64,000 nucleotides of DNA, taken from positions 2,232,001 through 2,296,000 of the forward strand of contig NZ_CP031148.1 in NCBI RefSeq assembly GCF_003342675.1, in the 5' to 3' direction. Below the pieces are notes generated by a model, which worked only from the letters and a program-made list of their open reading frames with translations, made no database searches and had not been told where the DNA came from. The position numbers were made by a program, and so were the translations under genes. Shown here piece after piece: positions 11,027-61,995 of the stretch (positions are counted from its first letter, which is position 1; each line of letters opens with the position of its first letter). The stretch comes from Haloplanus rubicundus. GTDB taxonomy: Archaea; Halobacteriota; Halobacteria; Halobacteriales; Haloferacaceae.

Positions 11027-12124
11027 ATGATAGACGAGCGCCATGCGGCGATTTCGCTGAACGAGTTCCCCGATCCCGTCCTCGCCTACGCCGTGGAGGG
11101 TCGCGACGCCCGCGTAACGACGGTGAACGAGGCCTTCGAGCGACGGTTCGACGACGTCACGCCCGACGCGCCAGTCTCGACGGTGTTCGACCGATTCGGC
11201 ACTATCGAGACGTCCGGTGACGAGGATCCACTCACCCACCTCGTTCGGGGTGATCGTGTCGGAATATATCTCGACGGTGAGCGAGGCTCGTTCTTCGGAC
11301 GGGTGATCCCGTCGGACGAGAACGCCGGGTATCTCGTCCTCTCCGATCTGGGGCAGTGCCCCGACGTCGCAGACTCGCCCGCCGTCGACCAGGTCAGTAG
11401 CGTGATCAGCCACGACCTCCGGAATCCGCTCGATGTCGCCAAGGCACATCTCCAGGCCGCACGGGAGACGGGCGATCCGGAACACTTCGAGTCGATATCG
11501 AGCGCCCACGACCGGATGGAACGGATCATCCGCGACGTCCTCACCCTCACGCGGGGGGATGCCGTCGTGGACCCGTCGGAACGGGTCTCGATCGAAACCG
11601 CCGCGACGGATGCGTGGCAGTCGGTCGATACCGAACGAGCCACGCTCGATCTTTCGGACCCGCTTCCGGCGACGACCGCCGACCCCGACCGCGTCCGGCG
11701 GTTGTTCGAGAACCTGTTTCGGAACAGCGTCGAACACGGTTCGACGAGCAGTCGGTCGGAGGCCGACGATAGCGTGGAGCACAGCTCCACGGACGACCGG
11801 CGCTTCCGCGCCGGTAGCACCGTAGAGCGCGGCTTGGAAGGCGAGGATGTCCCCGACAGAGACGGCGAAGTGACGCCCGGAAGCAGCGTGACGATCACCG
11901 TCGGCACGTTGGAAGACGGGTTCTACGTCGCCGACGATGGCCCCGGTATTCCCCCCGAAGAGCGGGAGGTGGCCTTCGAGCCGGGATACTCCACGAGAGA
12001 GGGTGGGACTGGACTCGGCCTCGCAATCGTCGAGCGCATCGTCGCTGCACACGACTGGGAGATGAGCCTCACCACCGCCGAACACGGTGGCGTGCGATTC
12101 GAAATCCGATTCCAACCCCGATGA
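11027..12124 (+). CDS. Soluble sensor histidine kinase with tandem palindromic insert
   Basis: A 365-residue cytoplasmic kinase. Residues about 1-110 look like a divergent PAS-type input domain. The dimerisation/phosphoacceptor site is SVISHDLRNPLDVA with His129. The ATPase domain shows the N-box (LFENLFRNSVEHG, about 225-237), G1 (DDGPGIPPEE, about 303) and G2 (GGTGLGLAIVERI, about 325). Between N-box and G1 there is a roughly 55-residue hydrophilic insert encoded by tandem copies of the hairpin element at 11729-11790 and degenerate followers. The next gene, an HTH_10 activator, starts 46 bases downstream, and a HalX response regulator is convergent at 13728, so the three probably form one signalling locus. 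Confidence 0.9.
   Translation: MIDERHAAISLNEFPDPVLAYAVEGRDARVTTVNEAFERRFDDVTPDAPVSTVFDRFGTIETSGDEDPLTHLVRGDRVGIYLDGERGSFFGRVIPSDENAGYLVLSDLGQCPDVADSPAVDQVSSVISHDLRNPLDVAKAHLQAARETGDPEHFESISSAHDRMERIIRDVLTLTRGDAVVDPSERVSIETAATDAWQSVDTERATLDLSDPLPATTADPDRVRRLFENLFRNSVEHGSTSSRSEADDSVEHSSTDDRRFRAGSTVERGLEGEDVPDRDGEVTPGSSVTITVGTLEDGFYVADDGPGIPPEEREVAFEPGYSTREGGTGLGLAIVERIVAAHDWEMSLTTAEHGGVRFEIRFQPR
11729..11835 (+). repeat. Tandem in-frame double-hairpin element (histidine kinase)
   Basis: Unit 1 is gtcgaacacggttcgac (11729-11745), spacer gagca, then gtcggtcggaggccgac (11751-11767), encoding VEHGSTSSRSEAD. Unit 2 starts with gtggagcacagctccac (11774-11790), followed by a 5-base spacer and a different hairpin (accggcgc, ttcc, gcgccggt). 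A third, degenerate unit begins gtagagcgcggc near 11822. The 39-bp architecture is the same as at 27059-27097 and 61351-61389. Confidence 0.8.
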
Positions 12125-25249: not shown

Positions 25250-26250
25250 CCGTCGACCGCGAACTGACGATGAGTCGCGCCGTCGTCGAGGCCATCGGGA
25301 CCGAGATGCGCGAGAACGACGAGGTGTTCTACATGGGCGAGGACGTGGCCGACTACGGCGGCATCTTCGACAGCACCCAGGGGCTCTTGGAGGAGTTCGG
25401 CTACGACCGCATCATGGACGTGCCGATCAGCGAGACGGCTTACCTCGGTGCGGCCGTCGGCGCCGCCCAGCAAGGAATGCGCCCCATCGCGGAACTGATG
25501 TTCGTCGACTTCTTCGGCGTCGCGATGGATCAGATCTACAACCAGATGGCGAAGAACACCTACATGAGCGGGGGGTCGGTGAGCGTGCCGATGGTCCTGA
25601 CCACCGCCGTGGGCGGCACCTACAGCGACGCCGCCCAGCACTCCCAGACCCTCTACGGCACCTTCGCGCACCTGCCGGGGATGAAGGTGGTCGTCCCCTC
25701 GACGGCCTACGACGCCAAGGGGCTGATGCACAACGCCATCCGCGACGACGACCCGGTGGTCTACATGTACCACAAGCGCCTGATGGGGCTGGGCTGGTTG
25801 CCCTCCCCGACGGGGCCGAAGACGCCCGTCCCCGAGGCGGAGTACACCATCCCCTTCGGCCGGGCGGACGTGAAACGCGAGGGCGCCGACGCCACGGTGG
25901 TCACCCTCGGCCTGCACGTCCACCGCGCCCTCGACGCGGCGGCGACGCTGGCCGAGGAAGGCATCGATTGCGAGGTGATCGACCTGCGGACGCTCGTGCC
26001 GCTGGACCGCGAGACGGTGATCGAGAGCGTCGAGAAGACCGGCCGCCTCGTCGTCGTCGACGAGGACTACCGCTCCTTTGGCCTGACGGGCGAAATCGTC
26101 TCCAGCGTCGCCGAGGAGGCGCTCGACGCCCTGGAGGCGGTCGAACGCGTGGCGATGCCCGACGTGCCCATCCCCTACGCCCGCGAACTGGAGACCGAAG
26201 TGATGCCCGCCGCGGCCGACATCGAAGCCGCGGTCCGGAACGTCCAATGA
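25246..26250 (+). CDS. 2-oxoacid (or acetoin) dehydrogenase E1 beta subunit
   Basis: A 334-residue protein overlapping the alpha gene by four bases (atga), so translation is probably coupled. It has the E1-beta hallmarks: EVFYMGEDVADYGGIFDSTQ, the TPP-binding glutamate region VPISETAYLGAAVGAA, LMFVDFFGVAMDQIYNQM and the C-terminal transketolase domain with EDYRSFGLTGEIV. Length is normal for the family. Its alpha partner is upstream and lipoyl carrier downstream. Confidence 0.9.
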   Translation: MTVDRELTMSRAVVEAIGTEMRENDEVFYMGEDVADYGGIFDSTQGLLEEFGYDRIMDVPISETAYLGAAVGAAQQGMRPIAELMFVDFFGVAMDQIYNQMAKNTYMSGGSVSVPMVLTTAVGGTYSDAAQHSQTLYGTFAHLPGMKVVVPSTAYDAKGLMHNAIRDDDPVVYMYHKRLMGLGWLPSPTGPKTPVPEAEYTIPFGRADVKREGADATVVTLGLHVHRALDAAATLAEEGIDCEVIDLRTLVPLDRETVIESVEKTGRLVVVDEDYRSFGLTGEIVSSVAEEALDALEAVERVAMPDVPIPYARELETEVMPAAADIEAAVRNVQ

Positions 26251-26504
26251 GCGAGGGTGACCGCGTGGCTGTCGTCGCCGACGCGCCCGACGACGTCGAC
26301 GAGGAGGAGGGCGTCGTCGTCAACTGGTTCGCGAAGCCGGGGCGGCGCGTCTCCGCCGGTGAAAGCATCTGCGAGGTGCAGGTGGAGAAGGTGAGTATCG
26401 ACGTGCCCGCGCCCGTCGACGGCGAACTCGTCGAAATCGTCCGCGACGAGGACGACGAGTTCACCATCGGCGACACGCTGGCGTGGATCCAGCCGGAGGG
26501 GTGA
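26247..26504 (+). CDS. Stand-alone lipoyl-domain protein (E2 carrier)
   Basis: An 85-residue protein whose ATG overlaps the E1-beta stop by four bases. It is a single biotinyl/lipoyl domain: VNWFAKPGRRVSAGE, then the lipoylation site CEVQVEKVSIDVPAPVDGE with the modified Lys in VEK, and ending DTLAWIQPEG. The usual E2 enzyme carries this domain in the same chain as the acyltransferase; here it is separate. The next gene starts at 26501, overlapping the stop. Confidence 0.85.
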   Translation: MSEGDRVAVVADAPDDVDEEEGVVVNWFAKPGRRVSAGESICEVQVEKVSIDVPAPVDGELVEIVRDEDDEFTIGDTLAWIQPEG

Positions 26505-27229
26505 GCGTGGGGGACCAGCCCGCCCCGCGGACCCTCCGCGAGGAGCGTCGGCCGAGTCCGATGCGGCGGACCATCGCGGACCGGCTGGGGAAGAGCTACC
26601 GCGAGGCCGTCCACGTGACCGTCAGCCGCGAGGTGGACGCCGGGGCGCTGGTCGCGGCCGCCGACGCCGCGGGCGTCTCGCTCGTCGACGTCCTCGTTCG
26701 CGCGCTCTCGGACGCCCTCGACGCCCACCCGGCATTCAACGCCACGTTCGAGGACGGCACCCACCGGATCTACGAGGAGCACAACGTCGGCATCGCCGTC
26801 GCCATCGAGGACGGACTGGTCGCGCCGGTCGTCGCCGACGTGCGGGGGCGCGATCCGAACGACATCGCCGCCGAGCGCGAGCGCCTGTCCGAGGCCGTCC
26901 GATCGGGCGACTACGCGATGGCCGACCTCCGTGGGGGGACGTTCACCGTCTCGAATCTCGGTCCCCTCGGCGTCGACGGGTTCACGCCGATCATCAACCC
27001 GCCGGAGGTTGCCATCCTCGGCGTGAGCCGGGTTCGGAAGCGAGCACGACCGGCGGGCGTGGAACGACGTTCCACGGAGAGTCGGCCGGAGGCCGACGAC
27101 GGCGTGGCGTTCCGCGAGACGCTCCCCCTCGATCTGAGCTTCGATCACCGGGTCGTCGACGGCGCCGACGCCGCCCGCTTCCTCGGGACGCTGGCGGAAC
27201 GGATCGAAGACGCCGAGGCGTCCGTCTAG
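26501..27229 (+). CDS. Stand-alone E2 acyltransferase catalytic domain
   Basis: A 242-residue protein from a GTG at 26501 that overlaps the lipoyl-protein stop (gtga). It has the 2-oxoacid dehydrogenase acyltransferase catalytic fold: SPMRRTIADRLGKSYREAV at the start, FTVSNLGPLGVDGFTPIINP and the active-site LSFDHRVVDGADAARFL (HxxxDG). No lipoyl or peripheral subunit-binding domain is present. An in-frame hairpin element at 27059-27097 inserts VERRSTESRPEAD shortly before the active-site segment. The operon ends here, with no E3 gene. Confidence 0.85.
   Translation: MSVGDQPAPRTLREERRPSPMRRTIADRLGKSYREAVHVTVSREVDAGALVAAADAAGVSLVDVLVRALSDALDAHPAFNATFEDGTHRIYEEHNVGIAVAIEDGLVAPVVADVRGRDPNDIAAERERLSEAVRSGDYAMADLRGGTFTVSNLGPLGVDGFTPIINPPEVAILGVSRVRKRARPAGVERRSTESRPEADDGVAFRETLPLDLSFDHRVVDGADAARFLGTLAERIEDAEASV
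27059..27097 (+). repeat. In-frame double-hairpin element (E2 catalytic protein)
   Basis: gtggaacgacgttccac (17 bp), spacer ggaga, gtcggccggaggccgac (17 bp): 39 bases, 13 codons. It sits in a surface-type linker between ARPAG and DGVAFRETLPL. The same layout is at 11729-11767 and 61351-61389. Confidence 0.8.
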
Positions 27230-58840: not shown

Positions 58841-60187
58841 ATGGGTATCCCGCGAAGCGACGAGGCAGGTCCGCGTCTCGTCAGTCGGTCGGTTCGGGCG
58901 TCGGTCCCGTCCCTCCGTGCCGCGCTCGACGCCATGCCCGCTCCCCGCACGTTCTGGACCGCTCCCGACGAGGCGACGGTCGTCGCCGGCGGTGCCGCGG
59001 CGACCCTCAGCGCCGACGGTCGGGATCGATTCGCCGCGATCAAGGAGGGCATCGGCCGGGTCCTGCGCTCGGGCGACGTGCACGCCGGCACCGAGGCCGC
59101 CTGCCCTCGGCTGTTCGGCGGCTTCGCCTTCCACGACGAGGGGACCGACGACGACACCTGGGCCGGCTTCCCCGGAGCGCGGTTCGTCCTGCCGCGGGTG
59201 CAGGTGACCGACACCGACCGCGGAACGTGGCTGACCGTCAACGCCGCCGGCCCGGACGCGGCCCCCGAAGCCGTCGAGGACCGCCTCGACGCGGAGCGCG
59301 ACCGGTTCGAGGCGCTCGACGACCCCGACCCGACGCCGCCGCCGGAAATCGTCTCGCGGACGCGAACGACCCCGCGCGAGGCGTGGTGTGACTCCGTCGA
59401 CGCCGCCGTCTCGCGCATCCACGCCGGCGACCTGCGGAAGGTCGTCCTCGCGCAGGCGCTCGAGGTGACGCTCGACCGCCCGCTCTCGGTGCCCGACGTC
59501 CTCGCTCGTCTCGGCGAGACCTACCCGGACTGCTACCGATTCCTCGTGGAGCCGACGGCCGACGCGTCCGCCGACCGGCCGGCCTTCTTCGGCGCGACGC
59601 CCGAACGGCTGGTCAGCCGACACGGCCGCACGGTCACGACCGACGCGCTCGCGGGCACGACCGGCCGCGGCGACACGCCCGCCGAGGACGATTGGCTCGC
59701 CGAAGAGTTGCTCGGGGACGAGAAGAACCTGCACGAACACGAACTCGTCGCGGAGACCATCCGCGAACAGCTCGCCCCCTTCGCGTCGTCGATTTCCGCG
59801 GGCCAGCGGCGGGTCCGACGGCTGGCGACCGTCCAACATCTCTTCACCCCCATCACCGCGACGCTCGACAGCGACACGCACGTCCTCGACCTGGTGGAGG
59901 CGCTGCATCCGACGCCCGCCGTCGGCGGCCTCCCACCCGAACGCGCGCTCGCCACCATCCGCGAGACGGAGCCGTTCGACCGGGGCTGGTACGCCGCACC
60001 CGTCGGCTGGATCGACGCCGCCGGCAACGGCACCTTCGCCGTCGCCATCCGCTCGGCGCTCGCGCGCGGCGCCGAGACGACGCTCTTTGCCGGCGTTGGC
60101 GTCGTCGCCGACTCAGACCCCGACCGCGAGTGGGACGAGGTACAGCTGAAGTATCGGCCGATCCTCGACGAACTCGAACGAGCATGA
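58841..60187 (+). CDS. menF: Isochorismate synthase
   Basis: A 448-residue chorismate-binding enzyme. Motifs: AGDLRKVVLAQALEVTLDRP, FFGATPERLVSRHGRTVTTD, DALAGTTGRGDTPAEDDWLA, the Mg-binding ELLGDEKNLHEHELVAETIR and LHPTPAVGGLPPERALATIR with FDRGWYAAPVGWIDAAGNGT. It converts chorismate to isochorismate, the first committed step to menaquinone. menD overlaps its stop by four bases. A promoter-like ttaggtaaaagagt lies just upstream (about 58806-58819). Confidence 0.9.
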   Translation: MGIPRSDEAGPRLVSRSVRASVPSLRAALDAMPAPRTFWTAPDEATVVAGGAAATLSADGRDRFAAIKEGIGRVLRSGDVHAGTEAACPRLFGGFAFHDEGTDDDTWAGFPGARFVLPRVQVTDTDRGTWLTVNAAGPDAAPEAVEDRLDAERDRFEALDDPDPTPPPEIVSRTRTTPREAWCDSVDAAVSRIHAGDLRKVVLAQALEVTLDRPLSVPDVLARLGETYPDCYRFLVEPTADASADRPAFFGATPERLVSRHGRTVTTDALAGTTGRGDTPAEDDWLAEELLGDEKNLHEHELVAETIREQLAPFASSISAGQRRVRRLATVQHLFTPITATLDSDTHVLDLVEALHPTPAVGGLPPERALATIRETEPFDRGWYAAPVGWIDAAGNGTFAVAIRSALARGAETTLFAGVGVVADSDPDREWDEVQLKYRPILDELERA

Positions 60188-61995
60188 GTGCGCCGAATCG
60201 CAACGTCCTCTGGGGGCGGGCGATAGCCGACGAACTCGCGCGCAGCGGCGTCGAGAGCGTCGTCGTCTCCCCCGGCAGTCGCTCGACGCCGCTCGTCACC
60301 GCCGTTTCGGAACACGACGACCTGCACGTCTTCTCCGTCCTCGACGAGCGCTCGGCCGCCTACTTCGCGCTCGGCCGTGCCCGCCGTACCGGCGAGGTGA
60401 CCCCCCTGATCTGTACCTCCGGCACCGCGGCCGCGAACTACCACCCCGCGGTGATCGAGGCGGACCGCGGGCGCGTCCCCCTCCTCCTGCTCACCGCCGA
60501 CCGCCCGCCCGAACTCCGCGACAGCGGCGCCAACCAGACCGTCGACCAGGAGAAGTTGTACGGCGACGCCACCCGCTGGTACAAGGACCTGCCCGAACCC
60601 GAAGCCGACGAGCGGAAACTCCGCTCGCTCCGGACGGACGTGGCCCGCGCGCTCGCGGCGGCGACGGGCACCCCGTCCGGTCCGGTCCACCTCAACTGTC
60701 CGTTCCGCAAGCCCCTGGAGCCGACGCCCGTGCCGGGCGACGTGCCCGCGGACCTCGACCCCCTCGCCGCCGCCGGCCGCGACGGCGACCGTCCGTTCGT
60801 GACGACGACGGCCGGCGTGCCACGGCTCGACCGCGCCGACCTCCAGCGACTGGCCGAGGCGCTCACCGTGGACCGCGGGCTGATCGTCGCCGGCCCCGCC
60901 GACCCGCCGGGCGTCGATCCGCAGGCGGTCACCGCCCTCGCTCACGCCACCGGCTTCCCCATCGTCGCCGACCCGCTCTCCGGCCTGCGCTTCGGCGGCC
61001 ACACCCGCGTGACGACCACCGTCGGCGGCTACGACGGCTACCTCGACCCGCGCGTGACCGACGACTGGCCCGCGCCGGAAGCGATCCTTCGGATCGGCGC
61101 CTCACCCACCTCCAAGCGCCTCCGGAAGTACCTCGCGCGGACCGACGCGCGGGAGTTCGTCGTCGACCCCGCCGGCGCGTGGCGGGAGGCGGAGTTCACC
61201 GCGTCGGATCTCGTCGTCGCCGACCCGTCCCGCCTCGCCGCCCGCCTCGCGGAAGTCGTTCGCGGCGCCGGCGACGCGGACTGGCGCGACCGCTGGGCGG
61301 CCGCGGACCGAACCCACCGCGAGGTGGTCGCCGACGCGACCGGCGACGGCGTGGAGCCACGCTCCACGAGCAATCGGCTGCAAGCCGATGACGGCGCGGG
61401 CGGCTACTTCGAAGGGGCGATCCTCGCCGACGTGGCCGACCTCGCGCCCGAACCGTCGACGCTCGTCGTCTCGAACTCGAACCCCGTCCGCGACGCCGAC
61501 CGATTCGTGGCGCCCAGCGACGCCGGCTACACCGTCATCGGCAACCGCGGCGCGTCGGGCATCGACGGCGTCGTCTCCACCGCCCTCGGCGCCGGGAGCG
61601 CGACCACCGACCACCTGACGCTCGTGATCGGTGACCTCGCGTACTACCACGACGGCAACGGCCTGCTCTCGGCGCTCCGCTGTGGCGTCGAGGCGACCAT
61701 CGTCCTGATACAGAACGACGGCGGCGGCATCTTCCATCGCCTCCCCATCGAGTCGTTCGATCCCCCCTTCACCGAGTCGTTCCGGACGCCCCACGGTCTC
61801 GACTTCGAGCCGACGGGTGAGCTCTACGACCTCGACTACACCGCCGTCGACGACCGCGAGTCGTTCCGCGAGGCCTACGCCGACTCGGTCGCGAGCGACG
61901 GGACGGACGTGATCGACGTGCGGACGGACGGCGAGGCGAGCCAGCGCACGCGTGAACGGCTGGTCGAGGAGACGGTCGCCGAACTGACCGAGTGA
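60184..61995 (+). CDS. menD: 2-succinyl-5-enolpyruvyl-6-hydroxy-3-cyclohexene-1-carboxylate synthase
   Basis: A 603-residue thiamine-diphosphate enzyme starting MSAPNRNVLWGRAIADELAR, coupled to menF (ATGA at 60184-60187). N-terminal VVSPGSRSTPLVTAVSEHDD, the pyrimidine domain DERSAAYFALGRARRTGE and TSGTAAANYHPAVIEADRGR, and the TPP motif VIGDLAYYHDGNGLLSAL with INDGG-type QNDGGGIFHRLPIESFDPP. It makes SEPHCHC from isochorismate and 2-oxoglutarate. At 61351-61389 the hairpin element adds VEPRSTSNRLQAD within a loop after the substrate-binding middle domain. Confidence 0.9.
   Translation: MSAPNRNVLWGRAIADELARSGVESVVVSPGSRSTPLVTAVSEHDDLHVFSVLDERSAAYFALGRARRTGEVTPLICTSGTAAANYHPAVIEADRGRVPLLLLTADRPPELRDSGANQTVDQEKLYGDATRWYKDLPEPEADERKLRSLRTDVARALAAATGTPSGPVHLNCPFRKPLEPTPVPGDVPADLDPLAAAGRDGDRPFVTTTAGVPRLDRADLQRLAEALTVDRGLIVAGPADPPGVDPQAVTALAHATGFPIVADPLSGLRFGGHTRVTTTVGGYDGYLDPRVTDDWPAPEAILRIGASPTSKRLRKYLARTDAREFVVDPAGAWREAEFTASDLVVADPSRLAARLAEVVRGAGDADWRDRWAAADRTHREVVADATGDGVEPRSTSNRLQADDGAGGYFEGAILADVADLAPEPSTLVVSNSNPVRDADRFVAPSDAGYTVIGNRGASGIDGVVSTALGAGSATTDHLTLVIGDLAYYHDGNGLLSALRCGVEATIVLIQNDGGGIFHRLPIESFDPPFTESFRTPHGLDFEPTGELYDLDYTAVDDRESFREAYADSVASDGTDVIDVRTDGEASQRTRERLVEETVAELTE
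61351..61389 (+). repeat. In-frame double-hairpin element (MenD)
   Basis: gtggagccacgctccac (61351-61367), spacer gagca, atcggctgcaagccgat (61373-61389). It lies between ATGDG and DGAGGYFEGAIL and could be removed precisely without breaking the frame. Same architecture as at 11729 and 27059. The second hairpin differs in both arms together (a compensated change), showing that pairing, and not only protein sequence, is kept. Confidence 0.8.

Follow-up and report, generated by a model that had tools for sequence, protein, structure and literature searches.

Why does a histidine kinase gene carry at its N-box a tandem repeat that folds into paired hairpins, and why does the same repeat lie, in the same reading frame, within two unrelated enzymes? 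We examined the window, a 64,000-nt stretch of the Haloplanus rubicundus genome, in which a preliminary description had placed 39-bp cores at 11729, 27059 and 61351; coordinates, frame and peptide all proved correct on re-reading. Copy 1 is a 45-bp unit, AGC-39-GAC (11726–11770, plus strand, as are all copies and hosts in the window), with a core at 11729–11767 (59.5 bits, E = 1.2e-13) that encodes VEHGSTSSRSEAD; it occupies the N-box of the histidine kinase at 11027–12124 (HisKA and HATPase_c, Pfam). The adjoining copy 2 is a 48-bp variant unit (11771–11818) with a 42-nt core (11774–11815; E = 2.7e-7) and AGC instead of GAC as its right flank; its own second hairpin, already recognized in the preliminary description, has an 8-bp stem, ACCGGCGC/GCGCCGGT. 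Copies 3 and 4 are both GGC-39-GAC units. Copy 3 (27056–27100, core 27059–27097, E = 3.7e-13, peptide VERRSTESRPEAD) lies in the E2 catalytic domain of a 2-oxoacid dehydrogenase acyltransferase (26483–27229; Pfam PF00198, E = 4.9e-61), and copy 4 (61348–61392, core 61351–61389, E = 1e-12, peptide VEPRSTSNRLQAD) lies in menD, encoding SEPHCHC synthase (60184–61995, start codon inferred), whose top PDB match is MenD 2x7j (E = 5.6e-112), with the insert falling in an alignment gap. By Pfam, the hosts of copies 3 and 4 are 2-oxoacid_dh and the TPP enzyme MenD. Core geometry is 7+3+7, 5 and 7+3+7 nt in all three full copies. The first hairpin at 11729 had been credited with 6-bp arms but forms seven perfect pairs, and the second has the near-perfect 7-bp arms described (seven pairs, one of them G·T); a degenerate third copy reported near 11820 gave no model match up to E = 1. 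The E2 component itself is seemingly split (26250–27229), the stop of a short lipoyl protein overlapping the start of the catalytic-domain ORF.

Searching the window for the double-hairpin geometry alone (at least 13 of 14 Watson–Crick pairs) returned four places, the three full copies and a tRNA, whereas 50 Markov controls gave a mean of 0.06. Only a tRNA was matched by Rfam in the window, and the remaining matches of our covariance model there were overlapping reverse-strand echoes or weak. In the whole 3.77-Mb genome, a loose sequence pattern that did not require pairing recovered 38 copies, and the reversed pattern none. Chance or low complexity as the origin of the repeat is ruled out by the Markov and pattern controls. 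The covariance-model search for scattered in-frame copies, proposed in the preliminary description, yielded approximately 50 in many host genes, a few of the listed matches being reverse-strand echoes. All 12 congeneric genomes carry the element, in 10–54 copies each, and strong matches occur in at least 264 of 391 genomes and at least 60 of 86 genera of a class sample; a phylum sample of 247 genomes gave no match outside the window's own order. Because copies are rarely identical (152 distinct 39-mers among 173 copies), no recent burst is visible.

The repeating unit has the form RGC-(hairpin)-GRGCA-(hairpin)-GAC and is usually 45 bp long (core plus constant borders), adding 15 amino acids; the tandem arrays repeat with the same 45-bp period. 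An architecture search found 147 distinct units versus 5 in a Markov control, which was used because reversed hairpins stay hairpins, making reversed sequence unfit for this purpose. Arm sequences include GTGGARC, GTCGARC, GAGGARC, GCGGARC, GAGGGAC and GAGGGAT, spacers are mainly GAGCA or GGGCA, and the borders are AGC or GGC on the left and GAC or GAT on the right. Units within genes measure 45, 48 or 51 bp, and the length is a multiple of three in 142 of the 147; two non-coding copies are 53 bp long.

Comparison of 12 conserved host genes of this genome (MenD, enolase, Trm5, MutL, DapB and others) with their orthologues in eleven congeneric species, wherever an orthologue was found, showed that the segment is missing from most of them. 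The MenD, Trm5, enolase, HerA-like ATPase and sugar dehydrogenase genes exceed their empty orthologues by exactly 45 bp, and an SDR gene by exactly 48 bp, always in frame, so that the insertion polymorphism between species is precise; at sites with ragged flanks (MutS, MutL, DapB, E2, PPK and an asparaginase-like gene) the difference is approximately 36–42 bp. The copy in menD is an exact insertion against ten congeneric menD genes and is also carried by G007, and the copy 3 segment is not found in the E2 orthologues of G001, G003, G005 and G009. Because the Trm5, MutL, SDR, enolase, PPK and sugar dehydrogenase copies are missing from all relatives examined, including, where its orthologue was among those compared, G009, the sister of the window's genome in a small tree, these six are probably recent gains. 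Others are shared patchily (MenD also in G007; HerA also in G009 and G011; DapB also in G004 and G007), and their presence in non-sister species requires losses, transfer or repeated insertion. A 6-bp target duplication, GACGGC, looked attractive at MenD and was discarded because the HerA and TnpB sites show that GAC arrives with the element. One copy lies in each of mutS and mutL, which are neighbouring mismatch-repair genes (L024; own genome 557996 and 558810). Scattered in-frame copies, presence and absence among orthologues, and the compensating changes described below all agree with the preliminary reading of a mobile protein-coding palindrome; the opposite picture, a segment in every orthologue with no copies elsewhere and no compensation, is not what we found. 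Judging from these sequence comparisons, the repeat is very probably a non-autonomous mobile DNA element of approximately 45 bp, consisting of two adjacent hairpins, protein-coding and inserted whole.

Covariation, which the preliminary description had suggested checking, is present in both hairpins. Among 21 copies picked by sequence, 10 of the 14 pairs have two-sided changes, a level that no shuffle reached, and 97.3% of cells are paired, compared with 84.8% in shuffles and 19–42% in slid structures. Over the 152 distinct 39-mers, which came from a finder that demanded stems and scored G·T the same as Watson–Crick, the stem cells comprise 2075 Watson–Crick, 24 G·T and 29 mismatched. Strong covariation in both stems would also be expected if the hairpins were kept as functional mRNA structures, acting in regulation or translation pausing with the peptide incidental, but this explanation is very improbable: the hosts are unrelated, hairpin-free orthologues are the rule, G·U intermediates are far rarer than is typical of RNA-level selection, and copies lying antisense to a transposon gene have kept their hairpins. 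Furthermore, between near-neighbour dispersed copies (four or fewer differences) two-sided change is seen at 10 stem positions and one-sided change at 7, where independent change would predict roughly 0.5 and 26; therefore, coordinated change at the DNA level seems likelier than slow RNA-type compensation. In a mobile DNA element, arm-to-arm copying may be what keeps the hairpins perfect.

The antisense copies are among five non-coding ones, in G008 and G009, which lie approximately 57 nt past a tnpB stop codon, or else within the remnant of an end of this type, and run antisense to tnpB; the neighbouring TnpB gene matches Pfam PF07282. Homologous TnpB 3′ ends measure 292–294 bp when they hold the element and 246–247 bp when they do not, a difference in non-coding DNA of exactly 45 bp; it is thus the element, rather than the reading frame, that fixes the insert length. 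One TnpB 3′ site shows no target duplication, other sites being ambiguous. We take the 3′ region that holds the insert to be the guide-RNA region of the transposon, and an Rfam search of it gave no match. The TnpB transposon was considered as the source of the element and rejected, as most homologous ends lack the element and the TnpB end is thus a target. A TnpB lineage whose 3′ end bears the 45-bp insert has itself spread over several genera (L256, L257, L262, L264, L265; L291–L297), and the insert in this lineage shows compensating changes. Two tandem copies lie at a ThiD–ThiN gene end, after the stop codon; ThiD–ThiN end copies (L107, 13057–13140; L285) also provide a TAG stop codon within the first hairpin.

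Within genes one reading frame prevails. Among the non-kinase copies with clear coding flanks, 51 are in sense frame 0 and one is antisense, with 24 more unclear; one copy, antisense but in frame, lies inside a uracil-DNA-glycosylase gene. The common flank GACGGC falls in sense frame 0 in 28% of its occurrences in coding DNA and in antisense frame 0 in 42%, and most reading frames of the unit are free of stops. Since the element also occurs in non-coding DNA and once antisense, the in-frame bias most likely arises from selection rather than targeting, selection on the peptide being the simplest reason. Survivors in protein genes would then be multiple-of-three copies read in the VE..ST..R..AD frame, kept because they add a tolerated loop, commonly, as the flanking residues suggest, at Asp-Gly turns.

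Histidine kinases are the commonest location of the element and hold it in arrays. The recurrence in haloarchaeal kinases, which the preliminary description had put forward, is seen class-wide, with units directly at the N-box and the VEHG of the repeat coinciding with that box. The orthologues of the focal kinase in G003 and G005 have no repeats, that in G011 has one and that of the window's genome two, while a paralogue in the same genome holds a larger array of several units. Adjacent units nearly always alternate in codon use: arm positions 3 and 6 both differ in 20 of 24 neighbouring pairs, as against 18% of random kinase pairs, although some arrays may be homologous, which would overstate the significance. 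Alternating synonymous codons were noted in L066, L068, L069, L073, L079, L083, L201, L208, L212, L214, L216 and L220, and could result from recombinational loss of identical neighbours or from avoided cross-pairing. A fuller version, which we regard as unlikely, is that the arms are rewritten at each copying by fold-back synthesis, drifting fast while the hairpins stay perfect, and that kinase arrays are selected for codon alternation against recombination or cross-pairing. Also unlikely is a birth within the kinases, in which a native VEHG was duplicated in tandem at the N-box and the repeat then spread through short homologies such as GACGGC, by ordinary recombination, gene conversion or template switching, with no dedicated enzyme. 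The kinase predominance and the VEHG coincidence fit such an origin, as do the scarcity of one-sided changes, which suits template switching in palindromes, and the failure to find an enzyme or a known-transposon terminal motif at eight Y1 loci. However, the dispersed copies form a subfamily of their own, unlike the kinase type (loops CAC/GAC; arms GAGGARC, GCGGARC and GAGGGAC), and several unrelated genes, as well as a non-coding transposon end, carry precise 45-bp insertions.

For a mobile element inserted whole, we envisage the following. The unit would consist of two adjacent perfect hairpins with unpaired RGC on the left, GRGCA between them and GAC on the right; it would insert as a whole, without target duplication as in the one clean non-coding case, and often beside GAC/GGC codons. 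In histidine kinases it may have landed at, or grown from, the N-box and given rise to tandem arrays, which suggests how selfish DNA could come to remodel a signalling domain. A trans-acting enzyme would use the hairpins as its substrate, most plausibly in single-stranded DNA; a hairpin-recognizing enzyme of this kind would suit the anatomy of the unit and the missing target duplication, although we consider it less likely than not. The best candidate, named tentatively, is a Y1/HUH transposase of the IS200/IS605 kind. The genome has nine Y1_Tnp (IS200/IS605) matches; at eight resident loci the ends bore no resemblance to the element, and the one strong match was the known nearby FolD remnant, and resident Y1 insertion sequence ends at these loci were accordingly discarded as relatives of the element.

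Rickettsia palindromic elements (RPE), to which the preliminary description compared the repeat, are 105–146 bp long and occur in frame in many genes; those for tmRNA and RNase P RNA hold them too (PMC2229807, PMC10969869), and PMC2996958 cites coding palindromic repeats for Wolbachia and Methanocaldococcus jannaschii. With the RPE and Wolbachia palindromes, the haloarchaeal element shares multi-copy hairpin repeats that sit in frame, with one preferred frame, in unrelated conserved genes whose orthologues are empty, and with RPE it also shares non-coding sites (tmRNA and RNase P RNA for RPE, a TnpB 3′ end here). It differs in being 45 bp long, against 105–146 bp for RPE, in its two side-by-side hairpins, in its host class, Halobacteria, and in forming tandem arrays at one protein motif in which adjacent copies alternate codons. 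The M. jannaschii repeats (2005, cited in PMC2229807 and PMC2996958) are likewise archaeal palindromes fused into protein genes, but their host is a distantly related methanogen, and the likeness comes from the citing papers' description rather than from anatomy. Haloquadratum SMR-A (PMC3119063) inserts into IS605-type transposons at their untranslated ends, as does one copy of our element, and SMR-A and PATE are haloarchaeal mobile repeats without transposase or target duplication whose movement is called 'enigmatic'. As described there, SMR-A is approximately 110 bp long with terminal inverted repeats, which our element lacks; PATE have IS605-like ends, and no ends matching the element were seen at the eight resident Y1 loci here; and in-frame protein coding does not appear in that description for either. 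REP/REPIN sequences with their Y1 enzyme, RAYT, are also short paired hairpins in many copies, making a Y1 enzyme a natural candidate, but they are extragenic and GTAG- or CGTC-tagged, whereas the haloarchaeal element is intragenic, with RGC and GAC flanks in place of such a tag, and no RAYT was found linked to it among the nine Y1_Tnp matches of the genome. By size (45–51 bp) and host (a haloarchaeal order) it lies outside the RPE families proper, the likeness being one of function: the element works like RPE, yet belongs to no named family tested. Our literature search found no description of it, though most subscription papers were beyond reach and may hold an earlier one, and the haloarchaeal in-gene palindrome is apparently new to the literature. 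Selfish palindromes in working genes are thus not peculiar to reduced intracellular bacteria but spread across a class of free-living archaea. The precise empty sites of close relatives allow gain, tolerance and loss to be measured in organisms that are culturable and genetically tractable, and the tiny size of 45 bp sharpens the question of what moves such elements.

Two further forms were observed. Long-armed 53-bp versions (L095, L096; own genome 43251 and 2747336) lie in non-coding repeats, adjoining a CCCCTTTCAGTCCCACCC...GGTGGGACTGAAAGGGG hairpin, and these repeats are possibly a PATE. A sister type of 45 bp, with arms GAGGGAT/ATCCCTC and GCCGGC or ACCGGC, encodes EGSEIPREAGKAGD (L074, L238, L252, L340) and often adjoins the main type.
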